Below, piece after piece: positions 175 to 51,016 of a stretch of 64,000 bases of DNA (the stretch's first letter is position 1; every line of letters starts with the position of its first letter). The position numbers and the translations under genes were made by a program. The stretch comes from Rhodococcus rhodochrous (GTDB lineage Bacteria; Actinomycetota; Actinomycetes; Mycobacteriales; Mycobacteriaceae). A model generated the notes under the pieces. That model was not told where the DNA came from, made no database searches, and worked only from the letters and a program-made list of their open reading frames with translations. The stretch is taken from positions 4,207,444-4,271,443 of the forward strand of contig NZ_LT906450.1 of NCBI RefSeq assembly GCF_900187265.1, read 5' to 3'.

Positions 175-395
175 TTCGTCCCTGCCCGGTCGTGAGGAGC
201 CCCAAAGACCGGGAAGTGACGTCGAAGCACCTTCCGAGGTGTCGAAGAGGGAACCCGGTGAGAATCCGGGACTGCCCCGCAGCGGTATGCAGGAACGACC
301 GCCGTCAACAGCACTGGGTGCACACCCGGGAAGCGACGGCCAGTAGGTTCGAGCCTCACGGCTCGGGCGCCTGCGAGTCCGAATACCTGCCGATC
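175..395 (+). promoter_or_regulatory. Cobalamin riboswitch ahead of metE
   Basis: The conserved core is easily read: GAACCCGGTGAGAATCCGGG followed by ACTGCCCCGCAGCGGT at about 250-285, the GCGACGGCCAGTAGG B12-box region near 333-347, and GAGTCCGAATACCTGCCG near 374-391. The element sits in the 410-base leader of metE. In this class, adenosylcobalamin binding lowers expression of the downstream gene, so the B12-independent methionine synthase should be shut off when B12 is available. Boundaries are approximate because P1 was not folded rigorously. Confidence 0.93.
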
Positions 396-397
396 GT

Positions 398-418
398 GTC
401 GGGCACGCCGTGCCCGAC
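398..418 (+). terminator. Hairpin in the metE riboswitch expression platform
   Basis: A perfect 9-bp stem GTCGGGCAC / GTGCCCGAC closes a 3-base loop directly 3' of the riboswitch core and about 130 bases before the metE start. There is no U-run, so it may act as an intrinsic-like terminator, a pause or Rho-assisted element rather than a classical terminator. Confidence 0.4.
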
Positions 419-14812: not shown

Positions 14813-15138
14813 ACCGAACGTCGGGCACGTCCCTGCGTCGTCAGCTCGACGACCTCGCACACTCGGAGGATCGAGTGACGGAACACTGGTGGGACAACGC
14901 TGCATGCCGTTTCTTCGGCCCGGCACCGTTCTTCGCTCCGGACGACGAGACCCCGGCGCAACGCGCCGGACGAGAGCGTACCGCCAAACTCATCTGCAGT
15001 GCTTGTCCCGTGCGGTGGACCTGCCTACAGCAAGCTCTGACGACCGGCGAGCATCACGGCGTGTGGGGTGGAACAACCGAGCACGAACGCAAACGGCTCG
15101 CACGCCCGTCCCCGCAAGGTAGGCAGATCGCTCGCTGA
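14809..15138 (+). CDS. WhiB-family Fe-S transcription regulator
   Basis: A 109-residue WhiB-like protein with all four cluster ligands: Cys33 (NAACRFF), Cys63, Cys66 and Cys72 (ICSACPVRWTC), followed by the turn GVWGG at 84-88 and a basic C-terminal tail (ERKRLARPSPQGR) for DNA or sigma-factor contact. Such proteins bind 4Fe-4S and sense oxygen or nitric oxide. Its ATG overlaps the prpR stop (ATGA), so the two Fe-S regulators are translationally coupled; a GTG at 14875 is an alternative start. Which WhiB subclass it belongs to I cannot say. Confidence 0.9.
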   Translation: MNRTSGTSLRRQLDDLAHSEDRVTEHWWDNAACRFFGPAPFFAPDDETPAQRAGRERTAKLICSACPVRWTCLQQALTTGEHHGVWGGTTEHERKRLARPSPQGRQIAR

Positions 15139-15157: not shown

Positions 15158-16012
15158 CTACCGCCCCAGCCGACGGGCGCGTTCCGACAGGCGTGCGAGT
15201 CGAACATCGGGATGCTGGCGAGGACAGGTCGAGCACTTCACGCCGTGCGGACCGTTGTACAGCAGGCAACACGACACTCTGTGTACAAAGGTGTGTGGTG
15301 CCCCTTCGGATTCGGTCGCCACCTCTTGAAATCGTGGAGCAGGAAGCCGTGTCCCGCCGAGCTGCCCGGAGATTTCCCGTACCGTCGCGCGGGCAGATTC
15401 CAGTGCCTCGTCTACGCGCCCGGTCGCGGTTCCGGCCCACAGGTACCGGGTCGCGATGGAATCGACGGCCACAGCCCACAGCCGTCGCTCCCCCTTGCCA
15501 CAGAGCGAGGCCAAGTACTCGATGCCCGAACCCAATGCCTCGGCGAGCGCAGACTCGACCGGTGTCGTCAGCACCCGGGTGGACCGTGCTCCGACCAACC
15601 GGCCGTACATCTTCCGGTTCGGTGAGAACGTGCCATCCAGGGTCGAGATCGCGCCGGATGCAACAAAGTCGACGTCACGTCCGGTCAACGCGCGGCGGTG
15701 CAGGACCACGTCCTGAAGCCGTGGACTCAGCGCTGTCCCCGTGACGAACAGGCTCGCAACCGTCGGCAGGACCAGCGAACTACTGATCGCGCGCCACAGG
15801 ACCGTCCCCAGAATCAACGGGTCGTCGACCTGCCACCGCTCGGAACGCAGGTGCATCTCGTGCTCTACCCATTCGGGGTCGAGAATCGCGGAGGCGGGAA
15901 TCTCCTGGGAACCGCCATCGAGGATCAGTGGGGCGTGCTCACTCACCGGGAGCGTGTTCAACAGCCGGGTGAGCACAGCCTCCGCTGTCGGGTTCGGAAC
16001 AACCATCGTCAC
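15158..16012 (-). CDS. FhuF-like [2Fe-2S] reductase in B12 importer operon 1
   Basis: A 284-residue protein whose C-terminus has the FhuF-type cluster motif CC-x10-C-x2-C (Cys248, Cys249, Cys260, Cys263; RVSCCLLYNG, then KCSTCPR). E. coli FhuF is a [2Fe-2S] protein that reduces ferric siderophores in the cytosol. The rest is poorly conserved, as usual for the family. It starts 16 bases after the substrate-binding lipoprotein gene and is the last gene of an importer operon led by a cobalamin riboswitch. I infer a role in reducing the imported metal ligand, possibly a corrinoid rather than a siderophore. Confidence 0.8.
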   Translation of the reverse strand: MTMVVPNPTAEAVLTRLLNTLPVSEHAPLILDGGSQEIPASAILDPEWVEHEMHLRSERWQVDDPLILGTVLWRAISSSLVLPTVASLFVTGTALSPRLQDVVLHRRALTGRDVDFVASGAISTLDGTFSPNRKMYGRLVGARSTRVLTTPVESALAEALGSGIEYLASLCGKGERRLWAVAVDSIATRYLWAGTATGRVDEALESARATVREISGQLGGTRLPAPRFQEVATESEGAPHTFVHRVSCCLLYNGPHGVKCSTCPRQHPDVRLARLSERARRLGR

Positions 16013-16028
16013 CAGCGCCTTTCGTCGG

Positions 16029-17123
16029 CTACTCGAGTCCGCTCAAGTCCATCCGCGGCTCGATCTCGCTCTGAGGCAGCAGTTGTTCCTGTTCCAAAGC
16101 CTTCCGCACGTGTTCTGCAGTATCCATCATCAAGGCGCCACTGCGTCCCATGTCGGTCGGAAGGTTGAGGACGCGTCCCTGGGTGATGGCATCCAGTGAG
16201 CGGGTTGCGGGATTCTCGGAGAGAAGGGTCAGCTTCGCTTCGAATGCACCGGCACCGTCTCCGGTATCGGTGAGAACGATGAAGTCGGGGTTCGCGGCGG
16301 TCACCGATTCCCAGGACATCTTCGGGCTCTTCTCGTCCACGTCGTCGAGCGCGTTGCGGGCGCCTGTCACCTCGATGATGGATGTGAAGAGGTGGGGCTT
16401 TCCGGCGCTCGAGACTCCTTCGTTCGATACCGAGGTGATGTACATGACGGTGGGGGCGTCCTCTGCACGCGGTGCCGATTCCATCTCCCCTCGCCGCTCC
16501 CTCAACTCCTCGATCTTCGCCGCGGCGATATCGTCGTGACCGACGATGGCGCCGATGTTCGACAGGTCGGCGAACGCCTCGTCCCACGGTGACATGGTGT
16601 CGACAGAGCCGGGGAGGCACGTGGGGGTGACGGTGTAGGCAGGGATACCGAAGTCGTCGTTCAGGCGTTCCGGAGTGATGTTCTTCTCCACACTGAATCC
16701 CCAGCCGTAACCGGCCATCACCACGTCGGGCTTCTGGGCTTGAATACTCTCGAGGTTGAACGATTCCTCGGACTCGAACGGCAACTCGTCGATGCGCTCG
16801 GTGCCGTACATGCCGCGAAGCTGGTCGAGTCGCGAAGCACGAATGCCGCTGACGGCCGTGATGTGGTCGTCGGCGTCGAGCGCCAGCAAGTTCAGAAGAA
16901 TCTGGCTGTCGTTGGCGTAGATCGCCGTAGCCGGGGACGGGAAAGTGAGTTCCGTTCCGCAGTTCTCGACAGTGACTTCACCGTCGAGTGCGGCATCGTT
17001 GCTCTGATCGGAACTGCTGCAGCCGGTGAGGGCCACGACGGCTGCAACAAGTCCGGCAGCCAGAGGGGCCGGGGACTTCAGGCGGGACAGAATGCTCGAA
17101 TCGAACTGTAGGCGTTCAGACAT
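16029..17123 (-). CDS. btuF: B12-type ABC importer substrate-binding lipoprotein 1
   Basis: A 364-residue periplasmic-binding protein of the FecB/BtuF class. The N-terminus has a basic stretch, a hydrophobic segment and the lipobox ALTGC with Cys35 as the lipid-anchored residue, so it sits outside the membrane. The binding domain has the usual two-lobed signatures (LNLESIQAQKPDVVMAGYGW; KMSWESVTAANPDFIVLTD). The ATG at 17123 overlaps the ATPase stop by eight bases. BtuF and iron-siderophore binders look alike by sequence; the cobalamin riboswitch upstream of the operon argues for corrinoids. Confidence 0.85.
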   Translation of the reverse strand: MSERLQFDSSILSRLKSPAPLAAGLVAAVVALTGCSSSDQSNDAALDGEVTVENCGTELTFPSPATAIYANDSQILLNLLALDADDHITAVSGIRASRLDQLRGMYGTERIDELPFESEESFNLESIQAQKPDVVMAGYGWGFSVEKNITPERLNDDFGIPAYTVTPTCLPGSVDTMSPWDEAFADLSNIGAIVGHDDIAAAKIEELRERRGEMESAPRAEDAPTVMYITSVSNEGVSSAGKPHLFTSIIEVTGARNALDDVDEKSPKMSWESVTAANPDFIVLTDTGDGAGAFEAKLTLLSENPATRSLDAITQGRVLNLPTDMGRSGALMMDTAEHVRKALEQEQLLPQSEIEPRMDLSGLE

Positions 17124-17916
17124 GGTTCTCCGTGTGTGGTCGGGTCCCTGCGGAATCGGAACCGAGCACCAGGTGCTGCCGTCCGGTTGTGGGATCTGTG
17201 AGCTGGGTTGCAGGAACTGAGAAAACGTGTGCGACGGTGGCCGGCGACAGAGCGTCGGACGCATCGGCGTAGGTCGCAAGAGTGCCGTCGTGCAGGACGG
17301 CCACCCGGTCGAAATACGATGCGGCAAGGGTGAGGTCGTGCATTGCCGCGACGACTGTGCACCCGAGCCCCCGCAGCGTTTCCAGAAGGTGGATCTGGTG
17401 GCGGATATCGAGATGGTTCGTGGGTTCGTCCAGTATCAGCAAGGTCGACTCCTGGGCGAGCCCGCGGGCGAGCATCGCCCGGCGGCGCTCACCACCCGAA
17501 AGTTGGTCGCACCGCCGGTCGACTGCATGTGTCAATTCGACGGTGGACAGGGCGCGGAGAGTGACCTCCCGGTCCGAATCCTCGCCCATCGACCAGGGTG
17601 GACGATGAGGAATCCGGCCCATGGCAACCATTTCGCCGAGCAACAGGTCCTGCGGGGGTGTTTCTTCCTGCCCGACGTAGGCGATCGCCCTGGCCCGTAC
17701 CCGAGGCGGGAGAGAATAGAGATCCCGACCGTCGATGGTGACGGTTCCCTCTGCGGGCGCGCGTAGACCCGCGAGAGTGCGTAGCAGCGTCGACTTTCCG
17801 CTTCCGTTGACTCCCACCAGCGCAATCATGGAGCCGTACGCGAAATCGAGGTCGATGCCGGACAGAATGTCCGCACCCGCGACCGTGCAACGAACGTTGC
17901 GCACCTGCATGTGCAT
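17116..17916 (-). CDS. btuD: B12-type ABC importer ATPase 1
   Basis: A 266-residue FecE/BtuD-type ATPase. Walker A is GVNGSGKS at residues 35-42, the signature is LSGGERRRAMLARGLAQ, and Walker B is LLILDEPTNHLDIRHQ with the switch histidine in AAMHDLTLA. It energises import through the permease encoded just upstream. The ATG at 17916 shares one base with the permease stop (TGATG); TTG 17919 and ATG 17910 are alternatives. It is the second gene of a riboswitch-led operon permease - ATPase - lipoprotein - FhuF-like protein. Confidence 0.9.
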   Translation of the reverse strand: MHMQVRNVRCTVAGADILSGIDLDFAYGSMIALVGVNGSGKSTLLRTLAGLRAPAEGTVTIDGRDLYSLPPRVRARAIAYVGQEETPPQDLLLGEMVAMGRIPHRPPWSMGEDSDREVTLRALSTVELTHAVDRRCDQLSGGERRRAMLARGLAQESTLLILDEPTNHLDIRHQIHLLETLRGLGCTVVAAMHDLTLAASYFDRVAVLHDGTLATYADASDALSPATVAHVFSVPATQLTDPTTGRQHLVLGSDSAGTRPHTENHV

Positions 17917-18977
17917 CAATCACCGTCCGAGAAACTGTAGTGGCGCCGTCCGAGCAGGAAGAGGAAGACGGGCGCCCCGACCAGGCCCGTCATCACGCCG
18001 AGGGGAAGTTCCTCGGGACTGAGCAGAACGCGGGCGGCAATATCGATCCACAAGAGGAACAGGGCTCCACCGAGTGCAGCGACCGGCAGGACGATGCGGT
18101 GGCGTGCCCCCACCATGATCCTGGCCAGATGCGGCATGATCAGGCCCACGAACCCGATCCCGCCGGATACCGAGACCAGCACGCCGACCAGAATCGACGA
18201 CAGCGCGAACAACCCGAACCGAAGCCCCCGGACGGGAACACCGAGGGCTCTGGCGACGTCCGGTCCGCTCGCCAGCGCGTCGAGCCACGAATGGATCGCG
18301 AACAATATGCCCGCGGATACGAGCACGACGACAAGTGCCGGAAGGATCTGCTCCCACATCGAGCCTGCGACGCTTCCGAGTGTCCAGTGCAGGACCGAGC
18401 GAACGGCATCGCGGTCGTCGCTGAGGAAGACGAGAAAGCTCGATATCGACGAGAACGCTGACGCCATGACGACACCGGTGAGAATCAACCGAAGAGGTGT
18501 CAGTCCTCCTTGGGCCATGGAAACACCGAAGACCGCGGCTCCGGCAACCATCGCACCGATCAATGCGCCCAGCGACAACGCCCAGATGCCGAGTGTGGTC
18601 AGCACACCGAACATGATGACCAGGGTGGCTCCGACACCCGCTCCGGCCGAGATTCCCAGAAGGTACGGGTCGGCCAGGGGATTCTTCACGAGTGTTTGCA
18701 TTGCGGCGCCGGCCATCGCCAGGCCTGCGCCGACGATCAGCGCCATCAGGATGCGAGGTGCTCGGAGTTCCCAGATGATCGTGTCGTAGACGGGATCAGG
18801 GCCGGCCCCGCCACCGAGGCGGGCCCGCACCACGTCCCAGGTAGCCGACAAGGGCACGGGTTCCGATCCGAGAGTCAAGGAAACGAATCCACTGACGACG
18901 ACCGCGACGACAAGCGCGGCCAGTAGTGGAATCGCCGGAACCCGAGTGCGTCGAGGAGGTTTCGCGACCTCGAGCAA
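17916..18977 (-). CDS. btuC: B12-type ABC importer permease 1
   Basis: A 353-residue FecCD/BtuC-family permease with about ten membrane helices. Family motifs are ELRAPRILMALIVGAGLAMAG, KNPLADPYLLGISAGAG, the GGIGFVGLIMPHLAR loop that contacts the ATPase, and a final ELPLGVMTGLVGAPVFLFLL. The start appears to be TTG at 18977 with a weak ribosome site, and no better in-frame ATG/GTG lies nearby. It is the first gene after the cobalamin riboswitch at 19141-19318. Fusion of the two symmetric halves is not seen, so the transporter is a homodimer. Confidence 0.88.
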   Translation of the reverse strand: MLEVAKPPRRTRVPAIPLLAALVVAVVVSGFVSLTLGSEPVPLSATWDVVRARLGGGAGPDPVYDTIIWELRAPRILMALIVGAGLAMAGAAMQTLVKNPLADPYLLGISAGAGVGATLVIMFGVLTTLGIWALSLGALIGAMVAGAAVFGVSMAQGGLTPLRLILTGVVMASAFSSISSFLVFLSDDRDAVRSVLHWTLGSVAGSMWEQILPALVVVLVSAGILFAIHSWLDALASGPDVARALGVPVRGLRFGLFALSSILVGVLVSVSGGIGFVGLIMPHLARIMVGARHRIVLPVAALGGALFLLWIDIAARVLLSPEELPLGVMTGLVGAPVFLFLLGRRHYSFSDGD

Positions 18978-19140
18978 CTCGACTCACCGACAGGTGTAGT
19001 GCAGTGCCCCATTGCGGGGTCGGTGGCTTACTTCGGGGGAAGCAAATACACGAACAGGTATGAGGGGACCTCTGGCGTAGGCGCGCATCGATCGCTCTTT
19101 CGTAACTGGGGCCCAATCGCGAGGCCCGCGTTGTCATTCG

Positions 19141-19318
19141 GTGAGCCAGCTGGTATTCGGACTCAGGATCGTGCCCACTGGGCGCCTTCCCAGACCATCT
19201 ACGGTCCAGTGGCATGTGCCCTGTCGGTACCCTTTACCGCTGCGCGACAGTTCCGGATTCTCACCGGATTCCCTGTAGTTCCGATACATGTTGCGTATTG
19301 GAACTACGACTGACTCGA
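19141..19318 (-). promoter_or_regulatory. Cobalamin riboswitch ahead of B12 importer operon 1
   Basis: Read on the minus strand the element gives CAGGGAATCCGGTGAGAATC, ACTGTCGCGCAGCGGTAAAG, the CCACTGG segment, GGGAAGGCGCCC and GAGTCCGAATACCAGC, all in the order of the AdoCbl riboswitch consensus. A 7-bp hairpin TAGTTCC/GGAACTA forms its 5' arm near 19278-19308. It ends about 165 bases before the permease start; the same gap contains the CCCC-ATTG-CGGGG hairpin near 19012-19024, a possible expression platform. High B12 should reduce importer expression. Confidence 0.92.
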
Positions 19319-19577
19319 GGAGAACCTTACACAAAAAGGAGCAGGTGTTATAGGCCGGACCCGAAGACTGGGATTTCAGTACCCCAGGTAAGCTCGTGGA
19401 CTCCGGAATCTCTTGGCTCCCGGCATCTCAGCGGTGTCTGCATGATTCGACCCATCTCACCGTCGGCGATGGCATCACCAACTGTCGTCGCGTCGGTCGT
19501 ACCATCCCGCGCCCTCGGGCCTCCTCATCGAAAAGCAGGTACGTGGTGTACCGGCCGTGAAGGAAGAACTCAGACCT
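19319..19577. promoter_or_regulatory. Divergent promoter region, B12 importer 1 / FhuF-like gene 2
   Basis: This gap holds the start region for two divergent units: minus-strand riboswitch operon 1 and the plus-strand FhuF-like gene. On the minus strand GGCCTATAACACC, around 19345-19357, looks like a -10 element. No riboswitch is visible facing the FhuF-like gene. Promoter calls are tentative. Confidence 0.35.
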
Positions 19578-20354
19578 ATGACAGATCTCGACACGATCCT
19601 GGACACGATCGATGCGCTCGGTCCCCCTTTTCATGTCGGCACCACGCCGAGGAAGGGCACCGCAGACGACGCCGAGGTCGACTGGTTCGCCGGCGCACAA
19701 CTCTGCGACCCGGCGTCCGGGGAAGCACGAAGAATGATCGAGTTGCACGCTCGGTTTCGCCGGATGCCTGTCGCACGGCACGTCGGTTCCCTGGTCTTCC
19801 AACGCTACTGCCATCGTGTCTGCGCCGTCGCGGCAGCGGCGTGGGTACTGCACGGCGTCGCGCTGGACCTGCGTGCCCCGAACGTCCGCGTGCGCTTTGT
19901 TTCCGGCACGCCGGATCTGGTGGTGCTGGGCACACCGAGCGCACTGGCCGATGCCACCCCCGAAGATCTTCTCGAGGCGAGTGTCGACGGACACCTGGCG
20001 CCTCTCGCGCAGAGTGTGCGCGCCGAGACAGGCCCCGGGATGGGCAACCTCCTGGGCAATATCGCGGCGGGATTCGCCGGTGCCTTCCGAACACTTGCGC
20101 GACGACCCGACCCGAATCCGAACATGCAGGAAATCAGCGTTCTCGCAGAAAGTTTGCTCTCGGCCCGGCCCGAACTACAGCGTTGCGGTGACCTACGGAT
20201 TCTCACCGGCCCTGCCGGTCCTCGTCTCCAGTACGACCGCAGAACCTGTTGCCATTGGTATGCCGCCCCCGACGGCCGTTACTGTTCCTGGTGCTCTCGG
20301 CTTTCCTACGACGAACGGACACGACGTTTCCAGGAGTCCATGGCGCAGGAATGA
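19578..20354 (+). CDS. FhuF-like [2Fe-2S] reductase beside B12 importer operon 2
   Basis: A 258-residue protein with a C-terminal FhuF-type motif CC-x10-C-x2-C (Cys224, Cys225, Cys236, Cys239; RRTCCHWYAAPDG, then YCSWCSRLS). The ATG at 19578 is taken because AAGGAAG lies upstream; a GTG seven codons earlier is in frame. It is the second FhuF-like gene in 5 kb and is only distantly similar to the one at 15158-16012. It sits between the two riboswitch-controlled importers, convergent with importer 2 (38 bases apart). Cytosolic reduction of an imported metal complex is the inferred role. Confidence 0.78.
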   Translation: MTDLDTILDTIDALGPPFHVGTTPRKGTADDAEVDWFAGAQLCDPASGEARRMIELHARFRRMPVARHVGSLVFQRYCHRVCAVAAAAWVLHGVALDLRAPNVRVRFVSGTPDLVVLGTPSALADATPEDLLEASVDGHLAPLAQSVRAETGPGMGNLLGNIAAGFAGAFRTLARRPDPNPNMQEISVLAESLLSARPELQRCGDLRILTGPAGPRLQYDRRTCCHWYAAPDGRYCSWCSRLSYDERTRRFQESMAQE

Positions 20355-20391
20355 ACGGGGCCACGGGACCGGCCGGGGTCGTAGCGCGGAT

Positions 20392-21174
20392 CTACTGCAT
20401 CCGGGACGGCACCGGTGCGCGCAACCGCCGGTAACGGATTACCGGCGCACCCCCGTCGTCGTCCACCGTGGCACGCACGCCGTACACCTGCTCGATCATG
20501 TCGGCGGTCAGCGCCTCGGCCGGCGTTCCGCACGCGACGACCCGCCCCTTCTCGAGCACGACCACTCGATCACAGAACATGGCGGCGAGGTTGAGATCGT
20601 GCAGGGCAACATAACTCGTCACCGGTAGCGCTACGACCCGTTCGAGGATGTCGAGCTGATGCGCGATGTCGAGGTGGTTGGTCGGCTCGTCGAGCAGTAG
20701 CTCCTCGGGTTCCTGTGCCAGCGCCCGCGCGATCTGCGCGCGCTGACGTTCGCCGCCCGACATCGACCGCCACAGACGATCGGCGTGCTGCGTCATACCG
20801 GTCGCTTCGAGTGCGTTCGCGATGGCGAGGTCTCCCCCGTCGTCGCGTCCAAAAGTATCTGCATGAGGAATTCGTCCGAGACGCACCACGTCTCGCACTC
20901 GGATGTCGACCTCGGTGTGTGCGTGCTGTCCGACCATAGCGACGCGACGGGCAAGTGTCCGGCGGCCGAGGTTGCGCAGATCGGTGCCGTCGAGCGTCAC
21001 CACACCCGAGTCCGGCCGATCGACGCCGGCCAGCAGACGGAGCAACGACGATTTCCCCGAGCCGTTCGGTCCGAGCAGCCCGATCGTTTCCCCGGGCACG
21101 GGATCGATCGTCACTTCGTCGACGACGAGGTTTCCGCCGCGGCTCCACCGCAGCGACTTCGCGGACAGTGTCAC
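20392..21174 (-). CDS. btuD: B12-type ABC importer ATPase 2
   Basis: A 260-residue FecE/BtuD-type ATPase with Walker A GPNGSGKS at residues 35-42, signature MSGGERQRAQIARALAQ, Walker B ELLLDEPTNHLDIAHQ and switch ALHDLNLA. It starts with GTG at 21174, overlapping the permease stop by four bases (GTGA). It is the last gene of the second importer operon (lipoprotein - permease - ATPase), a different gene order from operon 1, so the two systems are not a recent tandem duplication. Confidence 0.9.
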   Translation of the reverse strand: MTLSAKSLRWSRGGNLVVDEVTIDPVPGETIGLLGPNGSGKSSLLRLLAGVDRPDSGVVTLDGTDLRNLGRRTLARRVAMVGQHAHTEVDIRVRDVVRLGRIPHADTFGRDDGGDLAIANALEATGMTQHADRLWRSMSGGERQRAQIARALAQEPEELLLDEPTNHLDIAHQLDILERVVALPVTSYVALHDLNLAAMFCDRVVVLEKGRVVACGTPAEALTADMIEQVYGVRATVDDDGGAPVIRYRRLRAPVPSRMQ

Positions 21175-22223
21175 GGGGTACTCCTCGTACGGAAGAGAAT
21201 CAGGGCAAAAGCGGGCACTCCGATCAGGGCCGTCACCACGCCGACGGGGACCTCTTGCGGTGCGAACACGGTGCGGGCGACCGCGTCGACCCACACCATG
21301 AAGACTGCTCCGACGACGGCGGTGACCGGGACCAGGCGGCTGTGGCGGGGGCCGACCAGGAAGCGGGCCGCGTGCGGAAGCACCAGTCCCACGAACCCGA
21401 TCGCGCCGGCCGCACTGACCAGGACAGCGGTGATCAGGGCCGTCACCATCAGGAACAGCAGCCGTGTGCGCCCGACCGAGATCCCGAGGGTCGCCGCGGT
21501 CGACGAACCGAAGGTGAAGGCGTCCAGTGACGATGCCTTCACCAGGCACACCACGATCCCGGCGGCGCAGACCGATCCGCAGAGCGCCACATCTGTCCAG
21601 GTGGCACCGGACAACGAACCGAGCAGCCAGAACAACACTCCCCGAGTGCGTTCCGCGTCGGCGGACGAGATGACGATGAACGATGTCAGAGCCGAGAACA
21701 GTTGTGTCCCTGCAACTCCGGCCAGAACCACGCGGGAGGTTCCGCCCCCTGCGCCGGTAGCCAACAGCAGCACGAGAGCAAACGAGGCGAGAGCACCGAG
21801 AAAGGCTCCACTCGACAGCGACACAGCGCCACCACCGATGCCGAGTACGGCGATCATCACGGCTCCGGTCGACGCACCCGACGAGATGCCGAGAACGAAC
21901 GGATCGGCAAGCGGATTGCGCAGCAGCGACTGCATGATCGCCCCGCACACCGCGAGTCCGGCGCCGCACACGGCGGCGAGCAGCGTGCGGGGCAGACGCA
22001 GTTCCCACACGATCCCTTCCCGAATCGCACTGACCGAGCTGTCACCCAGTCCCAAGCGTTCGAAGATCACCGCGTAGACGTCGACGACGGACAGCTCGGC
22101 CGGGCCGATCGTGACGGTCACCGCGATCGACAGTGCGAGAACGATCAGTCCCGCGACCACCACGACACCGGCCACCGGAACCCGGCGAACCTCCGCGGGT
22201 CGCCGGGCAGTGGACGTCACCAT
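21171..22223 (-). CDS. btuC: B12-type ABC importer permease 2
   Basis: A 350-residue FecCD/BtuC permease with about ten membrane helices: ELRLPRTLLAAVCGAGLAVCG, RNPLADPFVLGISSGAS, GAIGFVGLVLPHAARFLVG and VPVGVVTALIGVPAFALIL. The ATG at 22223 shares one base with the stop of the binding-protein gene (TGATG); a longer in-frame start would overlap that gene. It is the middle gene of operon 2. Iron-siderophore permeases of the same family are hard to separate by sequence; the riboswitch decides for corrinoids. Confidence 0.88.
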   Translation of the reverse strand: MVTSTARRPAEVRRVPVAGVVVVAGLIVLALSIAVTVTIGPAELSVVDVYAVIFERLGLGDSSVSAIREGIVWELRLPRTLLAAVCGAGLAVCGAIMQSLLRNPLADPFVLGISSGASTGAVMIAVLGIGGGAVSLSSGAFLGALASFALVLLLATGAGGGTSRVVLAGVAGTQLFSALTSFIVISSADAERTRGVLFWLLGSLSGATWTDVALCGSVCAAGIVVCLVKASSLDAFTFGSSTAATLGISVGRTRLLFLMVTALITAVLVSAAGAIGFVGLVLPHAARFLVGPRHSRLVPVTAVVGAVFMVWVDAVARTVFAPQEVPVGVVTALIGVPAFALILFRTRSTP

Positions 22224-23296
22224 CAGTTGTCGAGATTCCACTCGCGCAGGGCGTCGGCGACCTTCTCGATTCCGTCGATCGTGCGGATGGACGGGTTCAT
22301 ATCGGCGCCGTTGACCACGATGTACCGCCGGTTCTGCACCGCACTCAGGCGCTGGGTGACCGGATTCGATTCCAGGAACTCGATCTTGCTGTCCAGAGCG
22401 TCCCCGGTGATGCTGCGGCGGCTCAGGTCGGCCAGAACGAGCGCGGTCGGGTCACGATCGAGGATCGACTCCCAGCTCACCTGAGGCCACTCGTTCGTGG
22501 TGTCGTCGAAGACGTTCTTCGCTCCGACGGAATCGGTGATGATGCCCGACGATCCGCAGCAACCCGCCACATACGGGGTCTCGATATCGGCGAACCAGTA
22601 CGCGAGCGACACTCCGTTCGCGTTCACCTGTCCCGACGCGTCCTCGTACCGCTGTTCGAGTTCGGCGACGAACTGCTCACCGCGCTCACGCACGTCGAAG
22701 ATCGCGGCGAGGTCGCGGATCTCCTTGTACACCGCGTCCATGGTCAGCGGTTCGGTGCGGTTGCCGTCGGCGTTGACGCTGTTGTCGTCCTTGCCGTCGC
22801 AATCGGTGGGCGACAGGTAGGCGGGCACCCCGAGTTGCTCGAACTGCGACGGTTCGGCAACCCCACCGGGTCCGAGCGTTCCGCCGAAGGACGCCGAGAC
22901 GAAATCCGGTTCCGTATCGAGCACGACCTCGAAGGACGGCTTGTTGTCAGCCAGACGCGGAACCTTCGCGTTCTCGTCGGCGAGGTTCTCCCGAACGGGA
23001 TCGGTCCAGGTCGCGGTGCCGACCATGCGGTCGGCGAGACCGAGCGACAGCAGGATCTCGGTGGATCCCTGATTCAGGGACACCGCCCGCTGTGGTGGCG
23101 CGTCGACGGTGAGCGTCCTGCCGCAGTTCTCGATGGTGAGCGGGTACGCCGTCGCGGCTGTGTCCGGCTCGGGCGGAGTCGATTGTTCGTCGTTCGACGA
23201 GCATCCCGACACGGTCAGCGCCGCCGCCATCAATGCGACGCCGACGCGCACCACCGAATACCGCCTCGTACGGGCGGTGAATATCGAATTGTTCAT
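22223..23296 (-). CDS. btuF: B12-type ABC importer substrate-binding lipoprotein 2
   Basis: A 357-residue FecB/BtuF-class binding protein with an N-terminal signal (RRYSVVRVGVALMAAALTV) and lipobox TVSGC, Cys32. Binding-lobe segments include LSLGLADRMVGTATW, ADNKPSFEVVLDTEPDFVSA and PQVSWESILDRDPTALVLAD, and there is an unusual AGCCGSSG patch. The ATG at 23296 is preferred over the one two codons earlier because GAGG lies six bases upstream. It is first in operon 2, directly behind the cobalamin riboswitch at 23331-23464. Confidence 0.87.
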   Translation of the reverse strand: MNNSIFTARTRRYSVVRVGVALMAAALTVSGCSSNDEQSTPPEPDTAATAYPLTIENCGRTLTVDAPPQRAVSLNQGSTEILLSLGLADRMVGTATWTDPVRENLADENAKVPRLADNKPSFEVVLDTEPDFVSASFGGTLGPGGVAEPSQFEQLGVPAYLSPTDCDGKDDNSVNADGNRTEPLTMDAVYKEIRDLAAIFDVRERGEQFVAELEQRYEDASGQVNANGVSLAYWFADIETPYVAGCCGSSGIITDSVGAKNVFDDTTNEWPQVSWESILDRDPTALVLADLSRRSITGDALDSKIEFLESNPVTQRLSAVQNRRYIVVNGADMNPSIRTIDGIEKVADALREWNLDN

Positions 23297-23330
23297 GTCC
23301 ATCCTCGTGGGTCCTGCTTCGGCGACGCAG

Positions 23331-23464
23331 GTGTCCTGGCTCCCGGATCGACGCTCGCCCCCGGCCTTCCAACCCGTATGGGCCGTGACCATGCTGTTGG
23401 GGGATCACTCCTCGGTGACAGTTGCGGGACAGCCACGGATTCGCACCGTTGTTCCCTACGTCGC
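23331..23464 (-). promoter_or_regulatory. Cobalamin riboswitch ahead of B12 importer operon 2
   Basis: On the minus strand P1 is formed by GCGACGTAGG and CCTGCGTCGC. Between them are GGGAACAACGGTGCGAATCC, GTGGCTGTCCCGCAACTGTC, GTTGGAAGGCC and GATCCGGGAGCCAGGACACC, the compact AdoCbl riboswitch pattern. P1 ends only about 25 bases before the GAGG ribosome site of the lipoprotein gene, which favours control of translation initiation. Confidence 0.9.
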
Positions 23465-23576
23465 TACGAACAGTACAAGACCCGGCGTCGGTCCCGGAAC
23501 CGCGCAACCGGGCGTCCGCCACCCATCGACACCGGATGAGGCACCATGTCCGAATGGCATCCGGCCGAAGAACCCT

Positions 23577-39487: not shown

Positions 39488-41368
39488 ATGTACGTGTATC
39501 CGTTCGGCGCGGTGGTCGGTTCCGACGACCTCGCGCTGGCCCTGACCCTGTGTGCGGTGTCGCCGACGATCGGCGGTGTGCTGGTGCGTGGCGAGAAGGG
39601 CACCGCGAAATCGACGACGGTGCGTGCCCACGCCGCGCTGTTGCCGCCGGTCACCGTCGTGGACGGGTGCCGGTTCTCGTGCGATCCGGACGCGCCCGAT
39701 CCGTCCTGTCCGGACGGTCCTCATCCGGCCGATACAGCCTCGCATGTCCGACCGGTTCGGCTGGTGGAACTACCCGTCGGCGCGGCGGAGGATCGCGTCA
39801 CCGGAGCGTTGCATCTCGGCAAGGCACTGGCCGACCGCACGGCCGAATACGAACCCGGTCTTCTGGCCCTGGCCCACCGCGGTGTGCTGTACGTCGACGA
39901 GGTCAATCTCCTGCACGACCACCTGGTCGACCTGCTGCTCGACGCCGCGGCGATGGGTCGCTCGACCGTCGAACGCGATGGGGTCTCCGTCGAGCACGCC
40001 TCCCGATTCGTCCTGGTCGGAACGATGAATCCCGAGGAGGGTGAGCTTCGCCCGCAGTTGCTCGACCGCTTCGGACTCGCCGTGGATGTGGCCGCGCCCC
40101 GCGACCCGCACGTGCGCGCCGAGATCGTGCGGCGGCGGATGGCCTTCGACGCCGATCCGGCCGGATTCACCGCGCGGTGGGCGGATCGGGATGCCGAGTG
40201 GTCGCGTCGCGTCGTCGCCGCGCGCGAACGCGTCCCGCAGGTCGTACTGAGCGACGACGCGCTGGTCTCGATCGCCGAGGTGTGCGCGGCGTTCGATGTG
40301 GACGGCATGCGTGCCGACCTGGTCACCGCCCGCACGGCCATCGCGCACGCGGCCTGGCACGACCGCCTCGAGGTGACACGCGAGGACATCGCGGCAGCGG
40401 CCCGGCTCGCGCTTCCGCACCGTCGGCGGCGCAACCCGTTCGACGCCCCCACCAGCAGCGACGACCTGCTCGACGACCTGCTCGGCGGAGACGACCCCGA
40501 TCCCGGCCCCGACGACGATCCCGGTGGCGGCGAGAGCGCACCCGACGACTCGGCAGCGGAGACGTCCTCCGGCTCGGGCGACAGGTTGTCCACCAGCCTG
40601 GCGTCGGCATCGGATCCGTTTCGTGCCAGGGTGTTCTCCGTCGATCGGGTCGGGCGCGGGGCGGCCGGCCGTCGGTCGCGGGCGGTCACCACGATCGGCC
40701 GCACAGTGGGCAGTCGCCGCGGCGATTCCGGTCCGGTTCACCTTCCCGCCACGATCCGCGCGACCGTCCTCACCGATCAGGGTCTGCAGCTGCGCCGCAA
40801 GATCATCGAAGGCCGCGAGACCAATCTCGTCCTGTTCTGTGTCGACGCCTCCGGGTCGATGGCCGCACGCAACCGGATGGTGCAGGTCAAGACCGCTGTT
40901 CTGTCGCTGCTGCTCGACGCCTACCGCCGTCGCGACACCGTCGGCCTCGTGACCTTCCGCGGCGCCGGCGCGACCGTCGCACTCCCGCCGACGAATTCGG
41001 TGGACGTGGCCGCCGCACGGCTACGCGAACTCCCCGCCGGTGGGCGGACCCCGCTGGCGGAGGGCCTGATCGAAGCGGCCGAGATCATCCGGCGCCATTC
41101 GCTGCGGGATCCGCGACGACGCGCCCTGCTCGTCGTGGTCACGGACGGTCGCGCCACCGCCGGACCGGACGCCGTGCAGCGCTCGCTCGACACCGCGGAC
41201 GTCATTGCTGCACAGGGAATCTCCTCGGTGGTGGTGGATTCCGAGACGGGACGTTTCCGGATGGGTCTCGCGGCCCGTCTCGCCGAACGCCTCGGCGCCG
41301 ACTACGTACCCGTCGGCGAGGTCGATGCTGAGGCACTGACCGGAATCGTTCGGGAGAGGGCCGCCTGA
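39488..41368 (+). CDS. Fused AAA+/VWA chelatase subunit (ChlI-ChlD type), likely cobalt
   Basis: A 626-residue protein combining the two small chelatase subunits. The AAA+ part has Walker A GEKGTAKST at 35-43 and Walker B GVLYVDEVNLL, with ELPVGAAEDRVTGALHLGKA. A very acidic, glycine-rich linker (DDLLGGDDPDPGPDDDPGGG) near residues 335-360 leads to a VWA domain with the MIDAS motif DASGS at 453-457. It should drive metal insertion with CobN, replacing CobS/CobT. GGAGG precedes the ATG. Its stop shares a base with the cobO start (TGATG). Magnesium chelatase is the alternative label, but no bacteriochlorophyll genes are present and a cobalamin riboswitch leads the operon. Confidence 0.92.
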   Translation: MYVYPFGAVVGSDDLALALTLCAVSPTIGGVLVRGEKGTAKSTTVRAHAALLPPVTVVDGCRFSCDPDAPDPSCPDGPHPADTASHVRPVRLVELPVGAAEDRVTGALHLGKALADRTAEYEPGLLALAHRGVLYVDEVNLLHDHLVDLLLDAAAMGRSTVERDGVSVEHASRFVLVGTMNPEEGELRPQLLDRFGLAVDVAAPRDPHVRAEIVRRRMAFDADPAGFTARWADRDAEWSRRVVAARERVPQVVLSDDALVSIAEVCAAFDVDGMRADLVTARTAIAHAAWHDRLEVTREDIAAAARLALPHRRRRNPFDAPTSSDDLLDDLLGGDDPDPGPDDDPGGGESAPDDSAAETSSGSGDRLSTSLASASDPFRARVFSVDRVGRGAAGRRSRAVTTIGRTVGSRRGDSGPVHLPATIRATVLTDQGLQLRRKIIEGRETNLVLFCVDASGSMAARNRMVQVKTAVLSLLLDAYRRRDTVGLVTFRGAGATVALPPTNSVDVAAARLRELPAGGRTPLAEGLIEAAEIIRRHSLRDPRRRALLVVVTDGRATAGPDAVQRSLDTADVIAAQGISSVVVDSETGRFRMGLAARLAERLGADYVPVGEVDAEALTGIVRERAA

Positions 41369-41982
41369 TGCCGAAGGGACAGCCCACCGTCGTACCTGAC
41401 GACGGTCTCACGACCCGCCAGCGCCGCAACCGGCCGTTGCTGATGGTCAACACCGGTGACGGAAAAGGAAAGTCCACGGCCGCATTCGGTCTCGCGCTGC
41501 GGGGCTGGAACCAGGGCTGGTCGGTCGCCGTCTTCCAGTTCGTCAAGTCCGCCAAGTGGCGCCTCGGCGAGCAGACCGCCTTCGAGACCCTCGCCGACCT
41601 GCACGACGAGCGCGGCACCGGCGGACCCATCGAGTGGCACAAGATGGGATCCGGATGGTCGTGGTCGCGCAAGGAGGGCACCGAGGAGGACCACGCTGCC
41701 GACGCCCTCGCCGGATGGCGCGAGATCCAGCGACGCCTCGCCGCGGAGGAGCACGGCCTGTACGTGCTGGACGAGTTCACCTATCCGATCGCGTGGGGAT
41801 GGGTCGACATCGACGAGGTCGTCGATACGCTGACCTCTCGGCCGGGACGCCAGCACGTCATGATCACGGGGCGGCGGGCGCACCCGAAGCTCGTCGAGGT
41901 CGCCGACCTGGTGACGGAGATGACGAAGGTCAAGCATCCGATGGATGCGGGTCAGAAGGGCCAGCGAGGGATCGAGTGGTGA
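41368..41982 (+). CDS. cobO: Cob(I)yrinate a,c-diamide adenosyltransferase
   Basis: A 204-residue CobA/CobO-type ATP:corrinoid adenosyltransferase. The P-loop is NTGDGKGKSTAAFG (residues about 28-41); VAVFQFVKSAKW, EWHKMGSGWSW and the Walker B-like YVLDEFTYPIAWGW follow, ending in the KHPMDAGQKGQRGIEW tail. It adds the 5'-deoxyadenosyl ligand to cobalt. It is coupled to the chelatase gene by TGATG and to cobBC by GTGA. A CobO beside a ChlID-like gene and cobB is the mycobacterial order. Confidence 0.95.
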   Translation: MPKGQPTVVPDDGLTTRQRRNRPLLMVNTGDGKGKSTAAFGLALRGWNQGWSVAVFQFVKSAKWRLGEQTAFETLADLHDERGTGGPIEWHKMGSGWSWSRKEGTEEDHAADALAGWREIQRRLAAEEHGLYVLDEFTYPIAWGWVDIDEVVDTLTSRPGRQHVMITGRRAHPKLVEVADLVTEMTKVKHPMDAGQKGQRGIEW

Positions 41983-45409: not shown

Positions 45410-46875
45410 GATAGTGCCCCGTGGAGTGGTGGACTTCGGATCGGCTCTGCAGTAGACGTAGTGATCAACGAGTCGTGCTGGATACTATGCTGTTTCGCTC
45501 GAGCCGGTCAACGACAACGCCGGTTCGGTAGCGTGCTGTTTGGCGGCGATCACCGCCCGGAGCTCGTCCATGCTCACATCCGAGACATACCGGCGGGTGA
45601 CCTGCCACTCGTCGTGCTGCTCGATGACCACCGCGGTCGCCAACCGGAGGAATGCCGCCGGGTTCGGAAAAATGTCCACGACGTCGGCTCGACGCTTGAT
45701 TTCCTTGTTCAACCGCTCAATGGGATTGTTGGACCACACCTTTTGCCAATGAGCCTTGGGGAACGCGGTGAACGCCAGCACATCGTGTTTGGCGGCTTCC
45801 ATCAACGCCGCGACCTTCGGAAACGACCCGGAGAAGGTGTCGGTGACCTGATCCCACTGCTCCGCGACGGCGTCCGGGTCGGTGTGCGCGAAGATCGTCT
45901 TGACCGCCGCCATCACCGGCGGCACATGCTTGGCCGCCACCGCCGCCCGAATGTTGCGCATGAAATGCACCCGGCACCGCTGCCACGAAGAACCCGCGAA
46001 CTGCTGCATCACAGCAGCTTTGAGGCCACTGTGTGCATCGGAGATCACCAGATGCACCCCCGACAGACCACGGGCCTTGAGGCTGGTGAGGAACTCGCGC
46101 CAGAACTCGTAGGATTCGCTGTCCCCGACGGCGGTTCCGAGTACCTCGCGGGTGCCGTCGATCGAGACTCCGGTGGCCACCACCAACGCCTGGGACACCA
46201 CGTGCGCACCGACCCGGACCTTGCAGAAGGTGGCGTCGAGAAACACGTACGGAAAGCTCGTGTGCGTCAGCGTGCGCTCGCGGAACCGGGCGATCTCGGT
46301 GTCCAGACCAGCGCAGATCCGCGACACCTCCGACTTCGAGATCCCGGATCCGACACCCAACGCGCCGACCAGGTCGTCGACGCTGCGGGTCGACACGCCG
46401 TGCACGTAGGCTTCCATGACCACTGCGTACAGGGCCTTGTCGATGCGGCGGCGTCGCTCCAGCAAGGAGGGGAAGAACGATCCTGACCGCAGTTCGGGGA
46501 TCTTGACCTCGACATCGCCGCTGGTGGTGGCCACGGTCTTCGTTCGATGTCCGTTGCGGTGCGTTATCCGGGTGTCGGTGCGTTCGTAGCGGCCGGCGCC
46601 GAGCTTGTCGGTGGCCTCGGCTTCGATCAGAGCCTGCAGGCCGGTACGGATCAGTTCGGCGAACACGCTGGCGCTGTCGGCGCCCTCGAGCGCGTGGAGC
46701 TGGGTGAGCAGTGCAGAATGATCGTGGGTCATCGCGTAGCTGCTTTCTGTGAGTCACTGTGAGAGGTAACTCGTTGATCACTACGCGATGGCCCACCCTC
46801 GGCGAGGGAGCGACACGCCGCGGACCTGGCCGGATGCGCTCAGCCGATTCCCACCACTCCCCGGGACTTACCCGG
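45410..46875 (-). mobile_element. IS256-family insertion sequence, copy 1
   Basis: This 1466-bp segment recurs, identical wherever compared, at 61880-63345 (offset 16470) in the same orientation; flanks diverge abruptly on both sides. The outer ends share an imperfect inverted repeat centred on GGAGTGGTGG, about 20-25 bp. A perfect inner pair CGTAGTGATCAACGAGT (45457-45473 and 46769-46785) flanks the transposase. No perfect 8-bp target duplication is seen around this copy, which suggests recombination or deletion between copies after insertion. Confidence 0.9.
45485..46732 (-). CDS. IS256-family (Mutator-type) transposase, copy 1
   Basis: A 415-residue DDE transposase. N-terminal segment YERTDTRITHRNGHRTKTV with VKIPELRSGSFFPSLLERRR, then catalytic aspartates in YVFLDATFCKVRVG and LVISDAHSGLKAAV, and the glutamate in NNPIERLNKEIKRRADVV. 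The Mutator signature region QRCRVHFMRNIRA is intact. The frame is complete and the protein is identical to that at 61955-63202, so both copies look active and recently moved. Transcribed on the minus strand towards cobD. Confidence 0.95.
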   Translation of the reverse strand: MTHDHSALLTQLHALEGADSASVFAELIRTGLQALIEAEATDKLGAGRYERTDTRITHRNGHRTKTVATTSGDVEVKIPELRSGSFFPSLLERRRRIDKALYAVVMEAYVHGVSTRSVDDLVGALGVGSGISKSEVSRICAGLDTEIARFRERTLTHTSFPYVFLDATFCKVRVGAHVVSQALVVATGVSIDGTREVLGTAVGDSESYEFWREFLTSLKARGLSGVHLVISDAHSGLKAAVMQQFAGSSWQRCRVHFMRNIRAAVAAKHVPPVMAAVKTIFAHTDPDAVAEQWDQVTDTFSGSFPKVAALMEAAKHDVLAFTAFPKAHWQKVWSNNPIERLNKEIKRRADVVDIFPNPAAFLRLATAVVIEQHDEWQVTRRYVSDVSMDELRAVIAAKQHATEPALSLTGSSETA

Positions 46876-50955: not shown

Positions 50956-51016
50956 GCCGATGCCATTCGTTCAGCTTCCCAAGCTGAATACGCGGGTTCG
51001 ATTCCCGTCATCGGCT
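50956..51016 (+). tRNA. tRNA-Gly(CCC)-like sequence lacking the D-arm; probable island boundary
   Basis: GCCGATG (50956-50962) pairs perfectly with CATCGGC (51009-51015) as an acceptor stem. TCAGC-TTCCCAA-GCTGA gives an anticodon arm with CCC, and GCGGG-TTCGATT-CCCGT a T-arm. Only eight bases (50963-50970) separate the acceptor from the anticodon stem, so the D-arm is missing and the whole is about 61 bases. No CCA is encoded. A tRNA-type terminator follows. The likely reading is a tRNA-Gly gene damaged by integration or deletion, its 3' half marking an attachment site. Confidence 0.6.

Follow-up and report, generated by a model that had tools for sequence, protein, structure and literature searches.

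FhuF-like iron-sulfur proteins linked to cobalamin riboswitches in Rhodococcus rhodochrous and other actinobacteria

Escherichia coli FhuF, which frees iron from ferrioxamine, is the closest described relative of three small FhuF-like [2Fe-2S] proteins (FhuF1, FhuF2, and FhuF3) that are encoded by Rhodococcus rhodochrous in and next to the 64,000-nucleotide stretch analyzed here (the window; positions 4207444-4271443 of a single-contig 5.27-Mb genome). The formal potential of E. coli FhuF is given as -0.36 V at pH 7.4 in a section of PMC8068687. The R. rhodochrous proteins share with FhuF a C-terminal CC-x10-C-x2-C motif, the modelled order of structural elements, and a profile match to the solved E. 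coli structure. They differ from it in being linked to cobalamin riboswitches, in having no IdeR-like box, and in having cobalt or corrinoid genes alongside.

Three other described systems bear on these genes. The importers encoded next to them belong, like BtuFCD, to the FecCD transporter superfamily and resemble it in having a cobalamin riboswitch at the two window operons and at a third operon; unlike BtuFCD itself, all of their scanned parts score under the cut-offs of the BtuF, BtuC, and BtuD models. CobR-type corrin reductases are flavoproteins that reduce corrin cobalt before CobO acts; the FhuF-like proteins would perform the same job in the proposal made below, and differ from CobR as [2Fe-2S] proteins. 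To our knowledge, no enzyme has been firmly identified in actinobacteria as the one that reduces cobalt ahead of corrinoid adenosylation, and the cellular acquisition of scarce cobalt is poorly known. CbtAB (PF09490/PF09489), annotated as a probable cobalt transporter, stands beside FhuF genes of one branch of the FhuF tree (clade A, below), unlike the isolated CbtA of R. rhodochrous; a passage of PMC2773004 describes CbtAB as a cobalt transport system whose overexpression gave no growth gain under the cobalt limitation studied there.

Cobalamin riboswitches beside FhuF-like genes

A search of 150 genomes of the order with a FhuF profile listed 110 matches in 95 genomes, the three of R. rhodochrous (G000) included; G numbers denote genomes and L numbers fetched loci. 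The other 107 neighbourhoods were examined and the FhuF frame was recovered in 105 of them (L179 and L182 were dropped). All 107 were searched for riboswitches with our own model, R1, which was built from 32 riboswitch cores and recovers all eight riboswitches of the R. rhodochrous genome, five of them members of its training set. A riboswitch was located no more than 6 kb from the FhuF gene at 28 of the 105 loci, compared to 0.85 expected on the assumption of even placement and from riboswitch counts that exclude weak matches. This comparison had been set beforehand as a refuting test of the first-pass annotation, which was made from the window sequence and proposed that the FhuF-like proteins reduce incoming corrinoid before adenosylation; the association proved to be above chance.

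In a maximum-likelihood tree of 108 proteins, the riboswitch-linked loci fell into two branches, namely clade A (39 loci plus FhuF2 and FhuF3; support 98/85) and clade B (seven loci plus FhuF1; support 94/85). Linkage was observed at 23/39 loci of clade A, 5/7 of clade B, and 0/59 of the others, with 0.31, 0.11, and 0.43 expected, respectively. The clade limits were set with the riboswitch labels known, and the Fisher p value for the clades is therefore too small; the count over all loci is independent of the clades. FhuF2 and L163 form long branches, such that their placement is unsure. Since clade B adjoins unlinked branches, the tree implies at least two gains or losses of the riboswitch link. 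Much of clades A and B very probably belongs to the B12 regulon.

An IdeR-like box, defined as at least 15 of 19 matches to a 19-base consensus, was present 0.3-0.5 kb before the gene midpoint at nine loci, all of them outside clades A and B. Two further boxes lie within 6.5 kb of the gene, at L163 (clade A, 5.7 kb) and L175 (3.5 kb). Judged by the same consensus, no site in the entire window reaches 13/19, with best scores of 11/19 across the importer operons and 9/19 before FhuF2.

Among the papers listed in our searches of the open-licence literature, with most subscription journals outside it, we found no publication tying FhuF to cobalamin riboswitches. The passage of PMC7689651 in which these terms occur is unrelated to such a link, and PMC4531530 gives a tally of the FhuF genes of Frankia, which it attributes to iron. 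What has been annotated as a family of iron reductases can now be divided into B12-linked branches and the rest, with the genes to test named, and the annotation "siderophore-iron reductase" may be wrong for the B12-linked members.

Gene arrangement in R. rhodochrous

The window contains two importer operons, each headed by a cobalamin riboswitch that stands on the correct strand, ahead of the first gene, and above the RF00174 cut-off (Table 1). The operons differ in gene order, as had been noted at first sight: operon 1 runs permease, ATPase, binding protein, and FhuF1, and operon 2 runs binding protein, permease, and ATPase. FhuF1 is indeed the last gene of operon 1, beginning 16 bases past the binding protein gene. 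FhuF2 is encoded on the opposite strand between the operons, divergent from operon 1 and convergent with operon 2 (37 bases between the ends). The claim that each importer is paired with a FhuF-like gene thus holds for operon 1; for operon 2 the pairing is positional only, FhuF2 being outside both operons. A gene for a WhiB-like iron-sulfur regulator (window 14880-15138, + strand) is convergent with FhuF1, with 19 bases separating the ends.

Table 1. Features of the window discussed in the text. R1, our riboswitch model.
Feature	Position in window	Strand	Profile match	Remarks
FhuF1, FhuF-like [2Fe-2S] protein, 284 aa	15158..16012	-	PF11575 23.9 bits (cut-off 20.5)	Clade B; start GTG, alternative ATG 6 bases further
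SBP1, Peripla_BP_2 binding lipoprotein, operon 1	16029 to ~17123	-	PF01497 53.9 bits	
ATP1, ABC ATPase, operon 1	17116..17919	-	PF00005 110.1 bits	
PERM1, FecCD-family permease, opens operon 1	17916..18977	-	PF01032 309.3 bits	
Cobalamin riboswitch, head of operon 1	19131..19329	-	RF00174 96.5 bits (cut-off 31.5)	R1 101.9 bits (copy part of R1 training set)
FhuF2, FhuF-like [2Fe-2S] protein	19557..20354	+	PF06276 26.7 bits (cut-off 25.2)	ATG start possible at 19578
ATP2, ABC ATPase, operon 2	20392 to ~21177	-	PF00005 106.4 bits	Start approximate
PERM2, FecCD-family permease, operon 2	21171..22241	-	PF01032 291.2 bits	
SBP2, Peripla_BP_2 binding lipoprotein, opens operon 2	22223 to ~23302	-	PF01497 113.3 bits	Listed open reading frame to 23392 would extend into riboswitch
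Cobalamin riboswitch, head of operon 2	23309..23490	-	RF00174 82.8 bits (cut-off 31.5)	R1 84.1 bits (copy part of R1 training set)
Cobalamin riboswitch upstream of metE	209..408	+	RF00174 85.1 bits	MetE by Pfam
CobO/BtuR corrinoid adenosyltransferase	41368..41982	+	PF02572 197 bits	

A third operon, comprising a riboswitch, a binding protein (SBP3), a permease, an ATPase (ATP3), and FhuF3, ends approximately 0.4 kb before the window starts (L014). There is an 8-base overlap between the ATPase and FhuF3 genes, after which comes the metE riboswitch. All eight cobalamin riboswitches that Rfam detects in the genome are within 97 kb, as are all three FhuF-like genes, two of which close riboswitch-headed operons; the gene for CobO is 21 kb away in the window. 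The same region (4181957-4278895) also contains cobN, cobO, other corrin genes, metE, a smaller MetE-like gene, and four FecCD importers headed by riboswitches. A profile of the three proteins matched only FhuF1, FhuF2, and FhuF3 in this genome at E 0.001. A fourth, sub-cut-off match at 2922042 (17.6 bits) was rejected; it is a 362-aa frame with no Pfam match at E 0.001 and no CC pair. The CbtA gene (L015) is separate, behind a riboswitch of its own and with no FhuF beside it.

At one end of this region, a riboswitch at 4181957 is followed by genes for a BtuF-like binding protein (SBP4), a permease, an ATPase, and a CobU fused to an MBL-fold domain. In the last gene of this operon (L016:9746-11092, outside the window), the MBL-fold domain is N-terminal and PhnP-like, and it could substitute for a missing alpha-ribazole phosphatase.

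The window importers had been described as BtuFCD-type. They are FecCD-superfamily importers, and the BtuFCD name for them is neither established nor excluded by the sequence comparisons. The BtuF model (cut-off 234) gave 22.6 bits for SBP1, 37.7 for SBP2, and 64.6 for SBP4, with no reported match for SBP3; the BtuC model (cut-off 334) gave 222.9 for PERM1, 204.8 for PERM2, 183.7 for the third permease (its best NCBIfam match), and 218.5 for the permease of the CobU operon; and the BtuD model (cut-off 281) gave 114.4 for ATP1 and 107.7 for ATP2. These misses say little, because SBP4 and the permease encoded with it in the CobU operon miss the cut-offs too. Other top NCBIfam matches of the window importers, all sub-cut-off, were heme or iron transporters, "putative F420-0", and siderophore Eit models, with EitA and EitC the best or second-best match of SBP2 and ATP2. 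In a PDB search, SBP1 and SBP2 were nearest to unnamed periplasmic binding proteins and SBP3 had no match; SBP4 matched 4m7o, an "iron-binding protein", first (111.8 bits) and the B12-binding 5ysc second (84 bits).

FhuF1 and FhuF2 are 23% identical in sequence; both carry the cysteine motif and reach their Pfam cut-offs, and FhuF3 scores 36.7 bits with PF11575 in the genome search, above the cut-off. All three miss the FhuF equivalog TIGR03951 (cut-off 63.85 bits; FhuF1 16.7, FhuF2 30.5, FhuF3 18.6). The motif recurs as CC-x8-14-C-x2-C in 104 of the 105 recovered relatives, the exception being L106. The predicted fold is that of FhuF: an AlphaFold model of FhuF3 (20-row alignment) has a mean predicted local distance difference test score (pLDDT) of 90 and the same order of helices and strands as that published for the E. 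coli protein in a section of PMC8068687, and a profile of 20 relatives matches the E. coli FhuF structure 7qp5 (E 3.7e-10), aligning the two pairs of cysteines. Most clade A proteins end in CGDC (37/39, compared to 0/59 of the others and 0/7 of clade B). We dropped the Asp of this ending as a functional signature of the B12-linked branch, because E. coli FhuF also ends in CGDC and clade B does not.

Partner genes and wider relatives

Three kinds of importer recur beside the FhuF genes of the 46 clade A and B loci. FecCD permeases are present at eight loci, seven of them with a riboswitch; in these seven riboswitch-FecCD-FhuF loci the binding proteins are closest to SBP2 or SBP3 and never to SBP4. 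Nik/Cnt-type transporters are present at five loci, four of them with a riboswitch (L097 by permease match only), and CbtA at 16 loci, all in clade A and 14 with a riboswitch. CbtB accompanies CbtA at all of these except L111, and the two families were confirmed by Pfam on examples. The FhuF1 branch has a FecCD importer as partner in R. rhodochrous and Nik/Cnt-type importers in relatives. At L089 and L096 the riboswitch is immediately upstream of FhuF. At L090, L098, and L111, FhuF is placed back to back with a group made up of a cobaltochelatase-like gene, CobO, and CobB; at L090 the riboswitch lies between them. Among the 59 other loci, FecCD neighbours were found at one (L175) and a CbtAB or Nik-type partner at none; L123 and L126 have a match to the CobB-containing reference of the window 3-6 kb away, and L123 and L142 have a CobB match at approximately 9.5 kb.

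At four loci (L081, L095, L099, and L102), a riboswitch controls a Nik/Cnt-type metal importer whose last gene is FhuF. These are candidate cobalt importers. The binding protein of L081 scores 226 bits with NikA (cut-off 600) and 83 bits with CntA (cut-off 800).

Across the phylum, 35 of 246 genomes surveyed had a FhuF match and a riboswitch was found in four of the 20 stretches examined, out of 49 listed places. L228 has the order riboswitch, binding protein, permease, ATPase, and FhuF; L233 has riboswitch, FhuF, permease, ATPase, and binding protein; and L216 has FhuF, riboswitch, and CobN. CobN is present in the genomes of all three. The fourth stretch, L225 from G306, reads riboswitch, FhuF, CobB, and CobO. 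FecCD neighbours of FhuF with no riboswitch found were observed at L221, L222, L224, L230, and L231.

Named genomes were scanned with the word RRSCCLYY, which confirmed at least 556 relatives, of which 80 were kept; the nearest of those kept are from Rhodococcus species (66-67% identity). A riboswitch is near the matched FhuF gene at 22 of the 80 loci, and at L278 it is by a second FhuF copy. Operons with the order riboswitch-SBP3-permease-ATPase-FhuF occur in Rhodococcus, Streptomyces, Microtetraspora, Longispora, and Sinosporangium, and the arrangement FhuF-riboswitch-CbtB-CbtA in Saccharothrix and Lentzea. Within the genus, where 1.5 kb was examined per side, all 18 genomes (R. rhodochrous included) have a FhuF-like match. 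FhuF3 is kept behind ATP3 at seven other loci that have the complete FhuF3 (L320, L323, L324, L326, L329, L339, and L340), FhuF1 follows ATP1-SBP1 in G441, and the only best-hit ortholog of FhuF2 (G445) is located approximately 0.36 kb past a riboswitch on the same strand. A further six, weaker FhuF1-like matches follow FecCD-type genes, with no riboswitch in the 1.5-kb view. Taking these and the R. rhodochrous loci together, each of the three FhuF types is thus riboswitch-linked somewhere.

At two loci, L322 (from genus relative G437) and L292 (from Nonomuraea endophytica), a riboswitch is followed by an importer reduced to pieces and then by an intact FhuF gene, as if the importer had decayed and FhuF been retained; assembly faults could be the cause.

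Weighing the proposed role

We infer that the proteins of clades A and B would hand single electrons to cobalt, and we assign a probability of roughly 0.45 to the reading that they are FhuF reductases directed at cobalt, with reduction of a corrinoid before adenosylation as the most likely task. As members of the actinobacterial vitamin B12 regulon, they would probably be made during B12 shortage, because many of their genes are under or beside cobalamin riboswitches. The most likely substrate would be a corrinoid, either taken up or formed late in de novo synthesis, that CobO would then adenosylate; in R. rhodochrous, the three FhuF-like proteins would serve alongside three FecCD-type importers. 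A potential of -0.36 V is easily enough for Co(III) reduction in corrinoids or many chelates. It is weak for taking cob(II)alamin in the free form to cob(I)alamin; the step from Co(II) to Co(I) would need the adenosyltransferase to raise the potential.

Of all the observations, the operon riboswitch-FhuF-CobB-CobO of G306 is the strongest individual hint of corrinoid reduction before adenosylation. In its congener G401, the riboswitch, FhuF, and CobB are likewise followed by CobO (first 29 residues in the examined stretch). Neither genome gave a CobN match, and the best CobJ/CbiH match in G306 was 32.3 bits against a cut-off of 246.35; the FhuF protein there therefore seems unlike a cobalt-insertion helper. 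This part of the original proposal gains from these two genomes, and its corrinoid substrate is called into question by the partner genes, the CobU operon, and the distribution of CobN.

Several observations count against the corrinoid reading. The commonest partner is CbtAB, and at 14 of the 46 clade A and B loci we recognised no riboswitch, importer permease, binding protein, CbtAB, or cobalamin gene (L091, L115, and L127 among these having an ATPase-like match only). FhuF is missing from the most BtuF-like operon of R. rhodochrous, the one with CobU as its last gene, and SBP2-type importers occur behind a riboswitch in genomes without a FhuF match (G012 and G018). The CobB-CobO operon is known from two genomes of one genus, with two further congeners lacking a match. 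CobN is present in 115 of the 150 order genomes and in 27/27 with riboswitch-linked FhuF compared to 87/122 others (p 7e-4 with relatedness ignored; R. rhodochrous, which has CobN, excluded); the two clade A genomes that lack it, G017 and G134 (82% complete), are not riboswitch-linked. This distribution speaks for a role close to the supply of cobalt or the synthesis of the ring, and for de novo synthesis more than salvage. Finally, there was no riboswitch in the flanks of 57 of the 80 named loci (nearly full 7-kb flanks at 63 of the 80); many of these are Streptomyces loci at one conserved place, and they count against a universal role.

Much of this evidence would suit a cobalt-chelate reductase, the main rival explanation, which we consider less likely. 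The FecCD and Nik/Cnt-type importers would bring in a Co(III) chelate, from which the FhuF-like protein would release Co(II) for cobaltochelatase, by analogy with the release of iron from ferrioxamine, with B12 shortage turning on cobalt scavenging. The mix of CbtAB, FecCD, and Nik/Cnt-type partners is consistent with this, as are the sub-cut-off resemblance of the L081 binding protein to NikA, the exchange of importer type within the FhuF1 branch, the confinement of riboswitch-linked FhuF in the order to CobN-bearing genomes, and the presence of three importers with three FhuF genes in R. rhodochrous when its BtuF-like CobU operon has none. Against it, CbtAB is a probable transporter of free cobalt, for which reduction is unneeded; the riboswitch-FhuF-CobB-CobO operon occurs in two genomes with no CobN match; and a full-text literature search for "cobaltophore" gave no paper. 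If it did hold, which we regard as doubtful, actinobacterial scavenging of Co(III) chelates with dedicated FhuF-like reductases would parallel, for cobalt, the uptake of iron through siderophores.

The riboswitch counts, together with the absence of IdeR-like boxes, led us to discard an explanation by iron alone. It is improbable, too, that these proteins are ordinary ferric-siderophore reductases accompanying iron importers that came under B12 regulation by happenstance. The FhuF Pfam matches, the CGDC ending common to E. coli FhuF and clade A, the unnamed PDB relatives of SBP1 and SBP2, the sub-cut-off Eit matches of SBP2 and ATP2, and the riboswitch-less FhuF genes with FecCD neighbours that are common in the phylum all agree with such an origin; the excess of riboswitch-linked loci over expectation, the position of all nine close IdeR-like boxes outside clades A and B, the lack of such a box near the window FhuF genes, and the CbtAB and CobB-CobO neighbours argue against it. 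Donation of electrons to another protein of the B12 pathway or one that uses B12, such as the ring-contraction oxygenase CobG or MetH during reactivation, rather than to imported compounds, is very improbable. It would account for the position of FhuF3 directly before the metE riboswitch, for the corrin methylase-like and cobaltochelatase-like genes near FhuF in several relatives, and for the retention of riboswitch and FhuF at L322 and L292; it leaves unexplained the repeated pairing with three importer kinds and the co-occurrence of three divergent FhuF copies in R. rhodochrous. We also set aside a CobR-like function as the sole role (CobR itself was not searched for), because the three FhuF copies accompany three importers.

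The riboswitch-less Streptomyces loci (among L236-L313, and also L214 and L217-L220) encode FhuF proteins of the CGDC type. Their conserved place contains glycosyltransferase and nucleotidyltransferase genes, which we read as glgA/glgC-like, and a transporter-like gene. Elsewhere in the window, a Mutator-type transposase gene (45485-46732, - strand) adjoins the CobD/CbiB gene within the cobalamin cluster, and a short Rfam tRNA match at 50956-51016 (+ strand; 35.5 bits), absent from the ARAGORN output, is perhaps a degraded tRNA.

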